From assembly GCF_023093535.1 (NCBI RefSeq), contig NZ_CP095757.1:1240001-1304000 (forward strand): a stretch of 64,000 bases of DNA, read 5' to 3'. Both the position numbers and the translations under genes were made by a program. This DNA comes from Halovivax limisalsi (GTDB lineage: Archaea; Halobacteriota; Halobacteria; Halobacteriales; Natrialbaceae). A model generated the notes under the pieces. That model had not been told where the DNA came from, ran no database searches, and saw only the letters and a list, made by a program, of their open reading frames with translations. Position 1 is the stretch's first letter. Each line of letters starts with the position of its first letter. This document shows, piece by piece, positions 42,059 through 51,226 of the stretch.

Positions 42059-42403
42059 ATGGACTCGCCAGCCGAATCGGCACACAGGCGGGCTGCTGAG
42101 GCCTTTGTGCAGGCGACGCGTGAACGCTTCGACGAGGAGATCGAAGCGATCCACCTCTTCGGGAGCGTCGCCCGGGGCGAGGAACGAGGCGCCGACTCGG
42201 ATGTCGATTTACTCGTCGTGCTATCGGACGAGACGGACAACTCACGCGTAACGGACGCGATTCGCGATCACGCGTACGAGATCGAACTCGAATACGGCGT
42301 CGTCATCTCGCTTGTCGTCCGGACGCAGTCGGAACTCGACTGCGATCGGAATCGTCCGTTCGTCCGGACGGTAACCCGGACCGGACAAACGTTGTATGGG
42401 TAA
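42059..42403 (+). CDS. MNT-domain nucleotidyltransferase antitoxin (MntA-like)
   Basis: This 114-residue protein has the minimal-nucleotidyltransferase signature LFGSVARGEERGADSDVDLL: Gly35-Ser36 and Asp48-x-Asp50. In HEPN/MNT modules this enzyme AMPylates the HEPN ribonuclease and so neutralises it. All catalytic residues are present. Its end overlaps the start of the HEPN gene by 8 nt, the standard arrangement, but that HEPN gene is broken. Confidence 0.85.
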   Translation: MDSPAESAHRRAAEAFVQATRERFDEEIEAIHLFGSVARGEERGADSDVDLLVVLSDETDNSRVTDAIRDHAYEIELEYGVVISLVVRTQSELDCDRNRPFVRTVTRTGQTLYG

Positions 42404-42843: not shown

Positions 42844-42974
42844 TCACTCGTATCGTGGACGCTCCCGGTACGGAATCGGATCGCGCTCGCCGACTCGCTG
42901 AAAGGCTTCGAGCCGTCGGGTGGATGAGTCGCACGTTCCGCATGCGGGTTCGTTATCGCGGTAGCAGCTTCAGG
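42844..42974 (-). pseudogene. duplicate of the queC 3' end
   Basis: These 131 nt align without gaps to the last 131 nt of queC (43828-43958), same strand, with 25 differences by hand count (about 81% identity). Translated, it reads CYRDNEPACGTCDSS and RRLEAFQRVGERDPI, then its own stop. One zinc-ligand Cys of QueC (CDSC) is Ser here. There is no start and no upstream queC body. The toxin-antitoxin pair at 43049-43765 lies between the two copies. Confidence 0.85.
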
Positions 42975-43048
42975 TGAGCCTTGGCCGTACATCGTTGAGA
43001 CAGCACTCGGTTCTGACGGTACTTCGGAGCGTAGTCCGGTTTCAGTTG

Positions 43049-43827: not shown

Positions 43828-44589
43828 TCACGCGTATTCGGGGCGCTCCCGATACGAAATCGGATCGCGTTCGCCGACTCGCTGGAAGGCTTCGAGCCGT
43901 CGAGCGCACGAATCGCACGTTCCGCAGGCAGGTGACTCGTCGCGATAACAACTCCAGGTCCGTTCGTAGGGGACGCCGAGGTCGAGGCCGCGGGTCGCGA
44001 TGTCGGTCTTGCTGGCCTCGACGAACGGCGCTTCGATCGCGATCTCGGTGTCGTCGGCCGTGCCCGCCTCGACGACGCGCTGGAAGGCCGCGAAGAACTC
44101 GGGGCGGCAGTCCGGATAGCCGCCGTGGTCTTCCGAGTGGGCGCCGACGAACACCTCATCGCAGTCGGTGGCTTCGGCGTAGGCGACCGCCATCGAGAGG
44201 AGGTTGGCGTTGCGGAACGGGACGTAGGTCGAGGGCACGGCGTCACCGGTATCGCTCGCGTCGGGCACGTCCCCCGCATCGGTCGCGTCGGGACCCGCTC
44301 CCGTCCCTTCGATGAGGCTCGACCCGCCGATCCGGGCGAGGTGGTCCGTCTCGACGCGGTGGAACGTCGCGTCGAGTTCGTCCGCCTGCGCGCGGGCGCA
44401 CTCGTACTCTTTCGACTCGGTGCGCTGGCCGTAGGACGTGTGCAGGAAGTGCAGGTCGTAGCCGCGGTCGCGGGCCTCGTAGGCGGCGGTGGCGCTGTCC
44501 ATCCCGCCGGAGGCGAGGACGACGGCCGACCTGGAGGGTGAATCGGCGGCATCACGGTCGGTGGGAGTACTGGATCCCGCCATCGTCAT
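43828..44589 (-). CDS. queC: 7-cyano-7-deazaguanine synthase
   Basis: This 253-residue enzyme converts 7-carboxy-7-deazaguanine to preQ0 with ATP and ammonia. The P-loop is VVLASGGMDSATAAYEAR (SGGxDS), LHTSYGQRTE follows, and four Cys in WSCYRDESPACGTCDSCARR bind zinc. A Gly/Asp/Ala-rich insertion (about residues 95-115) is not in most homologs. The product feeds archaeosine formation in tRNA. It is last in queDEC, starting inside the queE stop (ATGA). Its 3' end is partly duplicated 984 nt downstream. Confidence 0.92.
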   Translation of the reverse strand: MTMAGSSTPTDRDAADSPSRSAVVLASGGMDSATAAYEARDRGYDLHFLHTSYGQRTESKEYECARAQADELDATFHRVETDHLARIGGSSLIEGTGAGPDATDAGDVPDASDTGDAVPSTYVPFRNANLLSMAVAYAEATDCDEVFVGAHSEDHGGYPDCRPEFFAAFQRVVEAGTADDTEIAIEAPFVEASKTDIATRGLDLGVPYERTWSCYRDESPACGTCDSCARRLEAFQRVGERDPISYRERPEYA

Positions 44590-45404
44590 CGCCCCGCGGC
44601 GTCGTCCCAGAGGTCGACGTGCAAGCGCGGCGTGTACCGGAAACCCCGGTCCATCGCGAGTTCGGCGACCGCGTTTCGCCGCTCGTCGAGTTGCTCTCGG
44701 GTCGTGCCCTCGGGCATCAGGAGGACGTCGCTATTCGGAATGGGGGTGTCGGTTCGCGAACGCAGCCGATCGAGGAGGGCGGTGATCTCGGGGAGGTCGG
44801 CCTCGCCGGTGACGACGAACTTCAGCTGCGCGTCGTAGGAGTCGATAAGGTCGGCGAGGGCCTCGAGATTGATTCGCCTCTCTTCGTGGCGGTCGGTCCA
44901 CGGTTCGACGGCGTCCGGATCCGCGTCGTCGTCGCGCTCCGCATCGTCGGTGCCGGCGGGCGGACGGTCGGGCGTCGGCGTGCTGCTCGCGAGTTTCGGG
45001 CTGACGCTCGCCAGGTCGATCGGCGCATCGCGGTAGATCGTCCCGTTGGTCTCGACGGTGACGTGATAGCCGCAGTCGTCGAGGCGCTCGAGGAGTGGGA
45101 CCGCCGCGTCGTGGAGCAGCGGCTCGCCACCCGTCAGGACGACGTGATCCGCGTCGTGGGACGCGATGTCCTCGAGGATAGCGTCGACGGACCGCCAGTC
45201 GCCCGTCGGCTCCCACGAGGTGTGATAGGAGTCGCAGAACCAGCAGCGCAGGTTACAGCCGCTGGTCCGGACGAAGACCGAGGGGACGCCCGCCAGTCGC
45301 CCCTCGCCCTGGAGGGAGTAGAACAGCTCGTTGATCGGGAGGGACTCGGACCGAGCGCGGGTATCCGATTCCGTGGATTCGGATGGCGTCAATTCGACCG
45401 GCAT
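44586..45404 (-). CDS. queE: 7-carboxy-7-deazaguanine synthase (radical SAM)
   Basis: This 272-residue radical-SAM enzyme makes the deazaguanine ring from 6-carboxytetrahydropterin. The cluster motif is CNLRCWFC (CX3CX2C) within FVRTSGCNLRCWFCDSYHTS; LTGGEPLLH and VTVETNGTIYR follow as in the family. A 35-residue acidic insertion near residues 150-185 has many Asp/Pro. It is in the middle of queDEC: the queD stop overlaps its ATG by one base and its own stop overlaps queC. Confidence 0.92.
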   Translation of the reverse strand: MPVELTPSESTESDTRARSESLPINELFYSLQGEGRLAGVPSVFVRTSGCNLRCWFCDSYHTSWEPTGDWRSVDAILEDIASHDADHVVLTGGEPLLHDAAVPLLERLDDCGYHVTVETNGTIYRDAPIDLASVSPKLASSTPTPDRPPAGTDDAERDDDADPDAVEPWTDRHEERRINLEALADLIDSYDAQLKFVVTGEADLPEITALLDRLRSRTDTPIPNSDVLLMPEGTTREQLDERRNAVAELAMDRGFRYTPRLHVDLWDDAAGR

Positions 45405-45868
45405 CAGATCCCTCCCGCGCAGAGTTCGCCCGTCTCGCGCACCTGGACGGAGATTTCTGTAACCGTATCGGGGAGTTCGGACTCGAGGCGGTCTTCGAGC
45501 AGGACGCTCATGACCTCCGCCGTGGGCGGGTGCGGGAGGACGACGAGCGCGTCCGCGTCGCCGGACGCCTCGAAGGCGTCGACGAGGGGGTCGTCCTCCT
45601 CGACGAGGAACCGGTGATCCCACTCGGAGATTATTCCAGTAATATCTCCTTTGTCGACGATCCAGCCCTCCTCGGTGAGGTGGCCGGTGATTTCGGCCGT
45701 GATTTCGTAGTTGTGCCCGTGCGGACGCGAGCACTTGCCCTCGTGGTGGAGTATGCGGTGGCCCGCGCTGATTCGGATCGGGGAATCGCAGCCGATGTGG
45801 AGGGTTCGGGGGGTTGCGTCGAGGGATTGGGGCGGGAGACTGTATTGTGGGATCGATTCGAGCGGCAT
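45404..45868 (-). CDS. queD: 6-carboxy-5,6,7,8-tetrahydropterin synthase
   Basis: This 154-residue enzyme performs the first dedicated step after dihydroneopterin triphosphate in the deazaguanine pathway. Zinc ligands His37 (ISAGHRIL), His50 and His52 (PHGHNYEI) and the catalytic Cys46 (EGKCSR) are present; LPHPPTAEVMSVLL lies in the C-terminal half. It heads the queDEC operon from a promoter near 45893. Confidence 0.92.
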   Translation of the reverse strand: MPLESIPQYSLPPQSLDATPRTLHIGCDSPIRISAGHRILHHEGKCSRPHGHNYEITAEITGHLTEEGWIVDKGDITGIISEWDHRFLVEEDDPLVDAFEASGDADALVVLPHPPTAEVMSVLLEDRLESELPDTVTEISVQVRETGELCAGGI

Positions 45869-46144: not shown

Positions 46145-46858
46145 TTAGTCCACCGGTTCAGTTTCCTCGATACGGGTTTCGAGCCGGGTGAGGAAGTTCG
46201 GATCGAACTCCTCGTCGACGTGGTTGACGTTCCAGAGGCCCGACTTCCGAATCGCTTCCGAGGGGCAGTGCCTGCCGAGCCAGTCGCTCGCTCTCGGATC
46301 GATCGGTTCGGCCCCATAATTACTGACGAGCGCGATCAGGTTCGATTCGAGGTACGCGCGTTCGCTGTCCGGTCCCGGTTCGTCGTCGACGTCGATCCAG
46401 AGGAACGGAAGGTTCCTGATGTACTCGCTGACGCGGACCTCGTGATCGAGTTCGGAAAGGCGGCGGTCCCTACCGGCGCTCGAGCCGACTCCCCACTCGG
46501 GATAGTCATCTTCGAGATCGGCTCTGGCGAGGAGGGCTTCGCCGACCCGTTTGCGGAAGACGGATCCGCGGTGGTTGCCGCCACCTTCGTAGGTGCCCCT
46601 GTTGGCGCCGCGGTGCGTTCTGAGGCGATTCCAGAGCGTGGTTCCACTTCCCGAGGATACCGCGTGCGTTCCGATTCGGGTGATCCGCGGCTGGTCGGAA
46701 CCCTCGCGGGATTCGTCGGCCGCGAAGAACACGTATATCCCGCGCTCCGGCCAGTCCGTGTAGCCGGTACAGTCGTCGAGCGTTTTCGCGCCGCCGACGC
46801 GTTCGTCGAACCGATCTAGCAGGTGATACAGTCGATCGAGATCGTCACGTCGCCCCAT
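46145..46858 (-). CDS. GIY-YIG-like nuclease protein
   Basis: This 237-residue protein has the superfamily's strand pair: ERGIYVFFAADE (Gly40-Ile41-Tyr42) and ITRIGTHAV (61-66, in place of YIG). The catalytic-Arg helix is TLWNRLRTHRG (about 74-84) and a later Glu is in AYLESNLIAL. Between them is a His/Arg/Gly-rich loop. I know no named family with the C-terminal part (SGLWNVNHVDEEFDP). It is divergent from a PD-(D/E)XK-like gene 196 nt away and is followed on its own strand by the structured element. Cleavage of DNA or RNA in genome defence is a possibility. Confidence 0.6.
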   Translation of the reverse strand: MGRRDDLDRLYHLLDRFDERVGGAKTLDDCTGYTDWPERGIYVFFAADESREGSDQPRITRIGTHAVSSGSGTTLWNRLRTHRGANRGTYEGGGNHRGSVFRKRVGEALLARADLEDDYPEWGVGSSAGRDRRLSELDHEVRVSEYIRNLPFLWIDVDDEPGPDSERAYLESNLIALVSNYGAEPIDPRASDWLGRHCPSEAIRKSGLWNVNHVDEEFDPNFLTRLETRIEETEPVD

Positions 46859-47054
46859 CGTGAGTCAGCGGACCAAAACTCTCCACAATGTAAAACTAGA
46901 CGGCCAACCAACCGAGGTAAATTAGATCATATCGACATCTGGGCCAGAAACAGTGGTGATGAAACCGCGTTCGTGGGGATTCCCGCTGCTGTTCACGGCG
47001 TTTTCACCAGAATCGAGTGCAAACCTACTTGTCGTCCGACTTCGATGTCCGCCT

Positions 47055-48296
47055 ATGAGTACCTCGACGGGTTCGCTTTCCGAGCCGGACGTCCTCGCCC
47101 AAACCAAGCGGGCGCTCTTTCCCGAGGACGATCCGGATCCGGCCTACGCCGTCGTGGACACCCAATTCGCGATGGATGAGTGGCTCTCCGGTCACCCCGT
47201 CGACCCGGAGACGCGCGAGTTACTCTCCCCGTTCAATCACGTCCGCGTCGGCAACGGCTACCCGGATCTGGTCGGCGTCCGCAAGCTGGAGAACGACTTT
47301 CTCGCCGTGGATCGATTCGGGGACGAACCCCCGTTGATCGTAATCGAGGCGAAGGGCTACGCCGGCGGCGACGTCGACACCGAGACGGGGATCACGCAGG
47401 CCTACGCTCGCCTCGCGGAGGCGAACGCGGCCTACCTCGCCGCTCCGGCGGCCATCATCACGAAAACGGATCGGACGCTCGCCAGAGAACTGAACGTCGG
47501 CGTGCTCGGCGTGACGGAGTCGGGAGACGTCACGCCGATGGAGCGTCCGCGGGTCGTGGGTAATCGAACCACCACGGAGGCGAAGGCGATCCGCTTCCAG
47601 GCCAGCGCGCAGGGTGTGGCCGACAAATCGTTCTCGCTGAACCATCCGAAGAACTACCTCGGATACGCGCTATCGTGCTACGCCGACGGCGAGACGGCGA
47701 CGCTACAGGAGAACTACGTCGTGGGCGAAGTCGACGGCTCGAAGCAAGGGGCGAAGTTTCTCGGACTCGTACACGAGCGACGCGGCCGCCCCGAACTTAC
47801 CACGCTCGGACAGGAGGTCGTTCGATTCGCGAAGTCGAATTACGGCACGGTCGAGAAAGCCCTTCGGGAGTTCGAGAACTGGCAAGGGAGCCGGAAACGA
47901 TTTATCGACGCCGAACCGCTCTGGGGGCAACTCGCCCGTCGGATCGTCTACGATTACAGGGCGACGACGCTGCTGGTTTCGGAGTTACAGGAACTCTACG
48001 AGATCGGGATATCGCGACCGACACTCGTCGAACTGGTTTCACACCTCCACGAGCACCACCCGACGTTCACCATCGAGCTGTTCATCAAAGGCGACGATGA
48101 CGTGCGAAGTCGCGTGCTGGACGAGGACGGTGAGCTGCAGGTCGACGAATTAGCCGACGGGAACGTCTTTCACTCGCCGACGGTGTTTCAGTTGAAGGCG
48201 ATGCTCTATCACGCCGGAATCGTGACCGACCGCGGGAAGGAGCCGAACAAACTGGATCCGACGGCCGACGTCTGGGCGCTTCGGGAACGTGTTTGA
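47055..48296 (+). CDS. PD-(D/E)XK nuclease-like protein with C-terminal helical domain
   Basis: From ATG 47055 this gives 413 residues. The nuclease core is near the N-terminus: Asp71 in GNGYPDLVGV, Glu98-x-Lys100 in LIVIEAKGYAGG and Gln115 in ITQAYARLAEANAAYLAAP, a D-ExK-Q set like that of restriction R subunits. Residues 180-413 lack helicase motifs and look like helical or winged-helix segments (LVSELQELYEIGISRPTLVE; SPTVFQLKAMLYHAGIV). The product could cut foreign DNA alone or with the divergent GIY-YIG-like protein. The frame is open back to 46953, but 47055 begins the well-coded part. Confidence 0.65.
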   Translation: MSTSTGSLSEPDVLAQTKRALFPEDDPDPAYAVVDTQFAMDEWLSGHPVDPETRELLSPFNHVRVGNGYPDLVGVRKLENDFLAVDRFGDEPPLIVIEAKGYAGGDVDTETGITQAYARLAEANAAYLAAPAAIITKTDRTLARELNVGVLGVTESGDVTPMERPRVVGNRTTTEAKAIRFQASAQGVADKSFSLNHPKNYLGYALSCYADGETATLQENYVVGEVDGSKQGAKFLGLVHERRGRPELTTLGQEVVRFAKSNYGTVEKALREFENWQGSRKRFIDAEPLWGQLARRIVYDYRATTLLVSELQELYEIGISRPTLVELVSHLHEHHPTFTIELFIKGDDDVRSRVLDEDGELQVDELADGNVFHSPTVFQLKAMLYHAGIVTDRGKEPNKLDPTADVWALRERV

Positions 48297-49458: not shown

Positions 49459-50100
49459 CTACCCGGTTTCGTTCCCGGTTCCAGTTTCGTTGCCGCCCCC
49501 GTTACCGCCTCCGTTCTCGTTCCCGCCGCCGTTTCCGTTCGTCTGCCACCAGTCTTCGTGCTCGAGTATCGAGTCCTCGTCCTCCTCTTCGACCGGAGTG
49601 CCCTCGACGGCGATGAACTCCTGGTTGTCGCCGAAGGGGCTCCAGTCCTTGTTCATCTGGAAGAGTTGCGGCTGGTTCCCATCGTCGGTGTCGGGGACGA
49701 AGCCGATATCTTCGTCGTACTCGCCGATCTCGGTGTCGTGGGCGACGAACAGCGGGACGACTTCGCCGGTGTTGAGCCACCGGATCTGGTGGGTGTTGTA
49801 GTCCGCGAACCAGCTGTCGGTGACGGCGCCGTAGTTCGGCTTCCAGTCGACGACGCCCGAGACGAACGCGAATCTTGCGTCCGGGTTGAAGTTGGTGATG
49901 TGGATGAGGGCGTCCCAATCGTCGTCCAGGAGCCCGTCGCCGTCGTCCTGCGCCGCCGCGGTTCCCGACGCGCCGACGGCGAGGGCGGCCGATGCGAGTG
50001 CGCCCTTCTTCAACGAGCGGCGCGAATCGCCAGTACGCGCGGCGGTGCTTCGTGAATCGTCCCCCGCTCCGTTGGTCGCGCTGATCGAGTTGTCCGTCAT
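49459..50100 (-). CDS. Tat-exported protein with Asn/Gly tail (paralog A)
   Basis: From ATG 50100 this gives 213 residues. The Tat signal is SRRSLKKGALASAALAVGAS (residues about 26-45), ending in Ala-Gln. A domain rich in Trp/Asp follows (WDALIHITNFNPDARFAFVS, NYGAVTDSWFADYNTHQIRW, GEVVPLFVAHDTEIGEYDED), then an Asn/Gly tail with two NET sequons. I do not recognise the fold. It is a tandem paralog of the gene at 50340. Confidence 0.75.
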   Translation of the reverse strand: MTDNSISATNGAGDDSRSTAARTGDSRRSLKKGALASAALAVGASGTAAAQDDGDGLLDDDWDALIHITNFNPDARFAFVSGVVDWKPNYGAVTDSWFADYNTHQIRWLNTGEVVPLFVAHDTEIGEYDEDIGFVPDTDDGNQPQLFQMNKDWSPFGDNQEFIAVEGTPVEEEDEDSILEHEDWWQTNGNGGGNENGGGNGGGNETGTGNETG

Positions 50101-50339
50101 ATAATAGTCACTCCGGTTCCCCGCTCCCACGGCCAGCCGGGTAAGGCGTAAGCTTGCAGTCGAAGCGGCGAACGAAGGCTCTGAAAGCGGCCTACGGGGT
50201 ACCTAGCTCGGTCGGCGACGCCGTCCGGCCACTCGCCCGGGGCGGTTTTTCACCGTCGACCGGTTTCTCCACCGCCTGCCCGCGTCGTTGGACCGTCGGT
50301 CGTCCCGGTCCGCGCTCGTTTACGAGCCGGTTTCGTCCA

Positions 50340-51065
50340 CTACCCGGTTTCGTTCCCGGTGGTGGTTTCGTTACCGTTTCCGGTTACGTTCCCGGTGGTT
50401 GTCTCGTTGCCGTTTCCGGTTACGTTCCCGGTGGTGGTTTCGTTGCCGTTTTCGGTTCCAGCGCCGTTGCCGTTCCCGCCGCCGTTGCCGTCCGTCTGCC
50501 ACCAGTCTTCGTGCTCGAGGATGGAGTCTTCCTCCTCTTCTTCGACGGGACTGGCCTGGATGGCGATGAACTCCTGGTTGTCGCCGAAGGGGCTCCAGTC
50601 CCGGCTCATCTGGTACAGCTGCGGCTGGTTCTGGTCGTCGCCGGTGTCGGAGACGTAGCCGAGGTCTTCGTCGTACTCGCCGATCTCGGCGTCGTGGGCG
50701 ACGAACAGCGGGACGACCTCGCCGGTGTTGAGCCACCGGATCTGGTGGGTGTTGTAGTCCTCGAACCAGCTGTCGGTGACGTCGCCGTAGTTCGGTACCC
50801 ACTCGACGACGCCCGAGACGAACGTGAACCTGGCGTCGGGGTAGAAGTTGGTGATGTGGATGAGCCCCTCCCAGTTGTCGTCCAGGATCAGGTCGTCGTC
50901 ATCGTCGTCCTGTGCCGCCGCGGTTCCGGACGCGCCGAGGGCGAGGGCGGTCGACGCGAGCGCCCCCTTCTTCACGAACGAACGGCGCGAATCGCCGGTT
51001 TGCGTGCCGGTGCGTCTCGAATCGTCTGTCGCTCCGCGGGTCGTCTTCGTCGTCTCGTCAGTCAT
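50340..51065 (-). CDS. Tat-exported protein with N-glycosylation-rich repeat tail (paralog B)
   Basis: From ATG 51065 this gives 241 residues. The Tat signal is SRRSFVKKGALASTALALGA. The central domain matches paralog A closely (GLIHITNFYPDARFTFVSGV, DSWFEDYNTHQIRWLNTGEV). The tail consists of three NGNETTTGN-x-TG repeats with six N-x-T sequons. In an archaeon with N-glycosylation such a tail is likely to be densely glycosylated and to act as a stalk or surface shield. Function otherwise unknown. Confidence 0.78.
   Translation of the reverse strand: MTDETTKTTRGATDDSRRTGTQTGDSRRSFVKKGALASTALALGASGTAAAQDDDDDDLILDDNWEGLIHITNFYPDARFTFVSGVVEWVPNYGDVTDSWFEDYNTHQIRWLNTGEVVPLFVAHDAEIGEYDEDLGYVSDTGDDQNQPQLYQMSRDWSPFGDNQEFIAIQASPVEEEEEDSILEHEDWWQTDGNGGGNGNGAGTENGNETTTGNVTGNGNETTTGNVTGNGNETTTGNETG
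50345..50452 (-). repeat. three 36-bp tandem repeats inside paralog B
   Basis: Units start at 50345, 50381 and 50417, each beginning CGGTT(T/A)CGTTCCCGGTGG. They are nearly identical and in frame, each coding one NGNETTTGN-x-TG unit. Slippage would change tail length by 12 residues without a frameshift. Confidence 0.85.
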
Positions 51066-51226
51066 ATCATCGCCCCTCCGGTCACTCGCTCCCACAGCCA
51101 GCGGGGTAAGCCGTAAGCTTGCAATAGGAACGTGTACGACTGTCCTGTGAGCCGCGTACGGAGTCCGTAGCCGGTCTCGAGTCGACCCGATCCGTTCCGC
51201 CGACCGGTCGCCGATCGTCGACGAGA

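Follow-up and report, generated by a model that had tools for sequence, protein, structure and literature searches.

PDC-M57 is a candidate defence system of PADLOC-DB represented by two models, M57A and M57B, and the literature library that was searched yielded no paper describing it. The Dpd systems, which concern 7-deazaguanine in DNA, comprise the dpdA-K gene set, in which dpdC has been assigned to DUF6884 (PMC11888242) and also to DUF328, where it is credited with the conversion of dPreQ0 to dADG (PMC12839542). DUF6884 is further reported to be related to YaaA, with a base-flipping mode that is itself a prediction, and YfjM, a B. subtilis DUF6884 protein, was recovered among proteins that bind abasic and ribonucleotide lesions (PMC11701544). 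In the locus studied here, a 237-aa protein matches M57B, as in PDC-M57; however, no M57A/DUF6884 gene is adjacent, and the only DUF6884 protein found in the genome is encoded approximately 2 Mb away. A likeness to the Dpd systems also exists, in that the neighbours of M57B relatives are often DpdC-like genes and in two cases DpdA, while the queDEC genes are the neighbours here, but M57B itself stands outside the dpdA-K gene set (PMC11888242). The 237-aa protein belongs to a known family of candidate defence proteins and is of the M57B type; it is present without its usual partner, and its gene lies beside an unrelated, mostly vertically inherited gene for a 413-aa PD-(D/E)XK-like protein.

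Both genes are located in the window, the whole 64,000-nucleotide stretch of DNA that was analysed, which is part of a 3.89-Mb haloarchaeal chromosome; among the named relatives found in the genome collection, the nearest is Halovivax asiaticus, with 85% identity in the protein compared. In positions of the window, the features are as follows:

42844–42975, minus strand: copy of the queC 3' end, 132 bp, 81% identical (sequence comparison)
43828–44589, minus strand: queC, 7-cyano-7-deazaguanine synthase (PF06508, E = 5e-67)
44586–45407, minus strand: queE, radical SAM (PF04055, E = 9e-17; synteny and homology)
45404–45868, minus strand: queD, 6-pyruvoyl tetrahydropterin synthase family (PF01242, E = 3e-20)
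46145–46858, minus strand: PDC-M57B family protein, 237 aa, likely a GIY-YIG-like nuclease (PADLOC match, motifs, AlphaFold2 topology)
46859–47054: divergent intergenic region, 196 nt, 51.5% G+C (sequence comparison)
47055–48296, plus strand: PD-(D/E)XK-like protein, 413 aa, widespread in haloarchaea (residues invariant in 30 homologs, genome matches, tree)

The two divergent open reading frames and the 196-nt spacer named in the original prediction were confirmed at these coordinates, and homologs place the start of the 413-aa gene at 47055 rather than at the beginning of a longer open reading frame from 46953. Among congeners, short conserved stretches exist at both ends of the spacer. Between congeners, both genes are under purifying selection, with dN/dS values of 0.13–0.25; the M57B and PD-(D/E)XK open reading frames are therefore both real genes. 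The immediate left neighbour of the M57B gene is the queD-queE-queC operon, which directly follows it in the same orientation, and not the accessory DNA with decayed toxin modules that had been proposed. Among known classes, a classical restriction-modification system was rejected, no methylase adjoining either gene, and a toxin-antitoxin pair was rejected, neither protein matching such families.

The 237-aa protein matches the PADLOC model PDC-M57B (PDLC04714) over its whole length (residues 1–233, E = 3.3e-69), and sequence searches of Pfam, NCBIfam and PDB returned no significant match. The original prediction had read a GIY, an IG motif, an Arg helix and a later Glu in this protein, and the alignment of 24 relatives bears this out, with G40, Y42, R61, G63, R78 and E171 invariant. 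The GIY, YIG, Arg-helix and Glu motifs of GIY-YIG nucleases such as UvrC, Slx1 and the Eco29kI/Hpy188I-type restriction enzymes are thus conserved in the family as a GVY...R-I-G...R...E pattern; unlike in those nucleases, the YIG motif takes the form R-I/V-G, with an Arg replacing the first Tyr. In the AlphaFold2 model, built from 27 homologs (pLDDT 89.2, pTM 0.89), strands occupy residues 40–50, 57–65 and 151–156 and helices occupy residues 75–83, 100–113, 137–148 and 166–178, and this predicted order fits a GIY-YIG domain with insertions. However, a Foldseek search of the model against PDB and viral libraries gave no significant match, a phage endonuclease II entry at E = 5.6 being no evidence, and the hhalign profile comparison of M57B with the GIY-YIG domains of relatives was likewise not significant, the aligned part being the Arg-helix stretch. 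The model topology is accordingly compatible with the GIY-YIG fold that had been anticipated, but Foldseek did not confirm it. From motif and predicted topology, the protein is likely a GIY-YIG endonuclease, and the assignment is kept at that strength because neither the Foldseek nor the profile comparison reached significance.

In the 413-aa protein, the residues singled out in the original prediction (D71, E98-x-K100 and Q115) held up as PD71...E98-A-K100...Q115, invariant in 30 homologs of 36–81% identity. This pattern resembles RecB/Mrr-type PD-(D/E)XK nucleases, but the family itself was not recognised when its sequence was searched against Pfam, NCBIfam, PADLOC and PDB. The AlphaFold2 model was built from only two sequences, reached a pLDDT of 42.7 and was not put to a fold search. 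The family was matched in 138 of the 243 genomes of the order and in 44 of the 46 genomes of the same family, usually as a single copy with neighbours that vary between genomes, and none was found in the viral contig scans. In its tree, the same-family genomes and Halovivax are largely kept together; a second subfamily, about 40% identical, is partly plasmid-borne. As judged from these sequence comparisons, the gene behaves like an ordinary chromosomal gene with mostly vertical inheritance, and its product is likely to be engaged in cutting or processing DNA for an unrelated task on the chromosome.

The proposal that the two genes form an undescribed nuclease defence module stands in part: both proteins are nuclease-like and one belongs to a candidate anti-phage family. 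The family is not undescribed, since PADLOC already catalogues PDC-M57B, and its partner elsewhere is a DUF6884/DpdC-like protein rather than a PD-(D/E)XK protein. A module peculiar to Halovivax would be co-regulated from the shared spacer, with both nucleases acting jointly on invading DNA. The divergent layout, the conservation of the spacer ends in four species, the purifying selection on both genes and the catalogued status of the M57B half all speak for such a module. However, with weak fragment matches left out for both genes, 32 of the 243 genomes contain both, 19 only M57B, 98 only the PD-(D/E)XK gene and 94 neither (Fisher p = 0.16), so that the pair shows no significant co-occurrence across genomes. 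The two genes are adjacent only in four species, all Halovivax, whose proteins differ by 15–24% and whose spacer is partly conserved, and never outside the genus; as far as adjacency is concerned, this is the outcome that the original prediction had named as refuting it. A fifth Halovivax species retains the PD-(D/E)XK gene without M57B, in the order queD 5' remnant, about 330 nt, PD-(D/E)XK gene, which resembles an empty site. With the PD-(D/E)XK gene distributed as an inherited chromosomal gene and the M57B partner elsewhere being of the DUF6884 type, a joint two-nuclease module is highly improbable.

The genes that accompany M57B in other genomes give a different picture. A DUF6884-type gene emerged from the neighbour analysis as the recurrent neighbour of M57B relatives, and library scans assigned its product either to PDC-M57A/DUF6884 or to the DpdC-like proteins; in several bacteria, M57B and the DUF6884/DpdC-type partner are fused in single proteins. 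By profile search, the partner gene is present in 36 of the 76 M57B loci, a count that includes some duplicate genomes. It is adjacent or fused in about half of the archaeal loci and in most bacterial and IMG/VR copies, including the M57B relatives of Kribbella and Actinoplanes and 10 of the 13 IMG/VR loci. In the case of Halovivax, the profile search found no DUF6884/M57A gene adjoining M57B in any locus. The sole DUF6884 protein of the genome (L082:1459-2253) is a weak PDC-M57A match (E = 3e-11), and its gene has as neighbours a tRNA-like stretch and small genes of viral appearance.

The spread of M57B is patchy, covering 51 of the 243 genomes, and extends to plasmids and IMG/VR contigs, with none in the phage collection that was scanned. 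In the M57B tree, the Halovivax clade (SH-aLRT 100) is nested in a 16-row clade (SH-aLRT 96), most of whose non-Halovivax members have an adjacent partner, and archaeal families are mixed in the tree, as would be expected for horizontal transfer. These features bear on the idea that M57B is a DNA-repair nuclease rather than a defence protein, with DUF6884 proteins recognising the lesions at which it acts. The relationship of DUF6884 to YaaA and the lesion interactions of YfjM (PMC11701544) are in its favour; nevertheless, the patchy spread, the family-mixed tree and the occurrence on plasmids and IMG/VR contigs are a better fit for a mobile defence or conflict gene, and a repair role is unlikely.

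Another possibility is that DNA cutting by M57B depends on the 7-deazaguanine state of the DNA, the chemistry being supplied by DpdC-like partners elsewhere and by queDEC here. Consistent with this, DpdC-like partners accompany M57B in many haloarchaea, and the hydrolysis of dPreQ0 to dADG is attributed to DpdC, of DUF6884/DUF328 (PMC12839542; PMC11888242). In addition, a DpdA-type transglycosylase is encoded divergently beside M57B in two loci (L018:4957-7857 and L034:192-3100), with a DpdC-like domain or neighbour, and such haloarchaeal loci are possibly compact 7-deazaguanine modification-restriction loci. The placement of M57B immediately ahead of queDEC, with both on one strand, also agrees with the idea. 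However, DpdA has no match in the genome studied here, and que genes are near only 5 of 49 M57B loci, all in Halovivax. Moreover, the genome has no full-length strong queC match besides the one in the window, and this gene is expected for tRNA archaeosine. A dependence of M57B on the 7-deazaguanine state is therefore quite unlikely. An extended form is equally doubtful. It envisages a compact modified-base system in which M57B would do the cutting and a 7-deazaguanine or other altered base would be read or made by DUF6884/DpdC-like proteins; in some haloarchaea, at loci L018 and L034, DpdA would make this a minimal modification-restriction set, and the Halovivax nuclease would instead have become attached to the preQ0 operon. 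The putative link of M57B to DUF6884/DpdC and to preQ0/7-deazaguanine chemistry is nevertheless an interesting lead with promise, resting on other genomes.

The reading that fits best, and that we hold to be fairly likely, is that of two independently inherited nuclease-type genes, in which a partnerless, horizontally spreading M57B gene was inserted beside an older PD-(D/E)XK gene. Rather than a new defence system, the pair is probably a chance adjacency, because the M57B gene is a mobile catalogued candidate that lacks the partner it usually has, and the PD-(D/E)XK gene is inherited in the ordinary way. In this history, a divergent queDEC/PD-(D/E)XK pair would be the older arrangement, into which the M57B gene would have entered, without a partner, between queD and the PD-(D/E)XK gene in the ancestor of the four Halovivax species. 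On Halorubrum plasmids and genomes, queDEC is divergent from a 39% PD-(D/E)XK homolog with about 200 nt between them and no M57B; the two are directly divergent in L106 and L155 and separated by about 1.1 kb in L129. Insertion of M57B between queDEC and the PD-(D/E)XK gene is most likely as the simplest history, the alternative being that M57B was lost from the fifth species instead of inserted in the other four. A shared function could also explain the lasting adjacency and the partly conserved spacer in four species, and the association of PD-(D/E)XK-type genes with queDEC in two separate clades may merit a test.

Under the preferred reading of two independent genes, the M57B family would spread horizontally and normally work with a DUF6884/DpdC/YaaA-like protein. 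Base flipping would be the means by which the DUF6884 partner detects an altered or modified base, and M57B would then cut the DNA at or near that base. In Halovivax, M57B may work alone or with a partner encoded elsewhere, for which the DUF6884 protein 2 Mb away is a candidate; as the partner is not next door, it may also have taken on another role. This reading prevents the naming of a false two-nuclease system. Meanwhile, for the catalogued but uncharacterised PDC-M57 family, it points to a likely nuclease chemistry and to a partner pattern that is well supported and includes fusions, and it offers a connection with archaeal modified-base biology that can be tested.

The surroundings of the pair differ from the description in the original prediction. 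The AT-richer zone placed at the right was not recovered, since the right flank has a G+C content of 64% against 63% for the M57B and PD-(D/E)XK genes, and only the spacer is low. The repeats said to bracket the pair are different repeats and not one element: the right one is a 763-bp tandem duplication (49463–51176, 82% identical) of an unrelated gene, and the left one is the 132-bp copy of the queC 3' end (42844–42975 versus 43828–43959), situated about 0.85 kb beyond queC. The tandemly duplicated gene has a Tat-like signal, and a scan of one of its copies gave no Pfam match. Similar queC 3' fragments lie beyond queC in congeners and on one Halorubrum plasmid, and this recurrence suggests that the 3' end of queC has served repeatedly as an integration site. 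The nucleotidyltransferase-type "toxin" lies further left, from 42059; this MNT-type gene (42059–42403) matches PADLOC PDC-S09 with an E-value of 3e-21.
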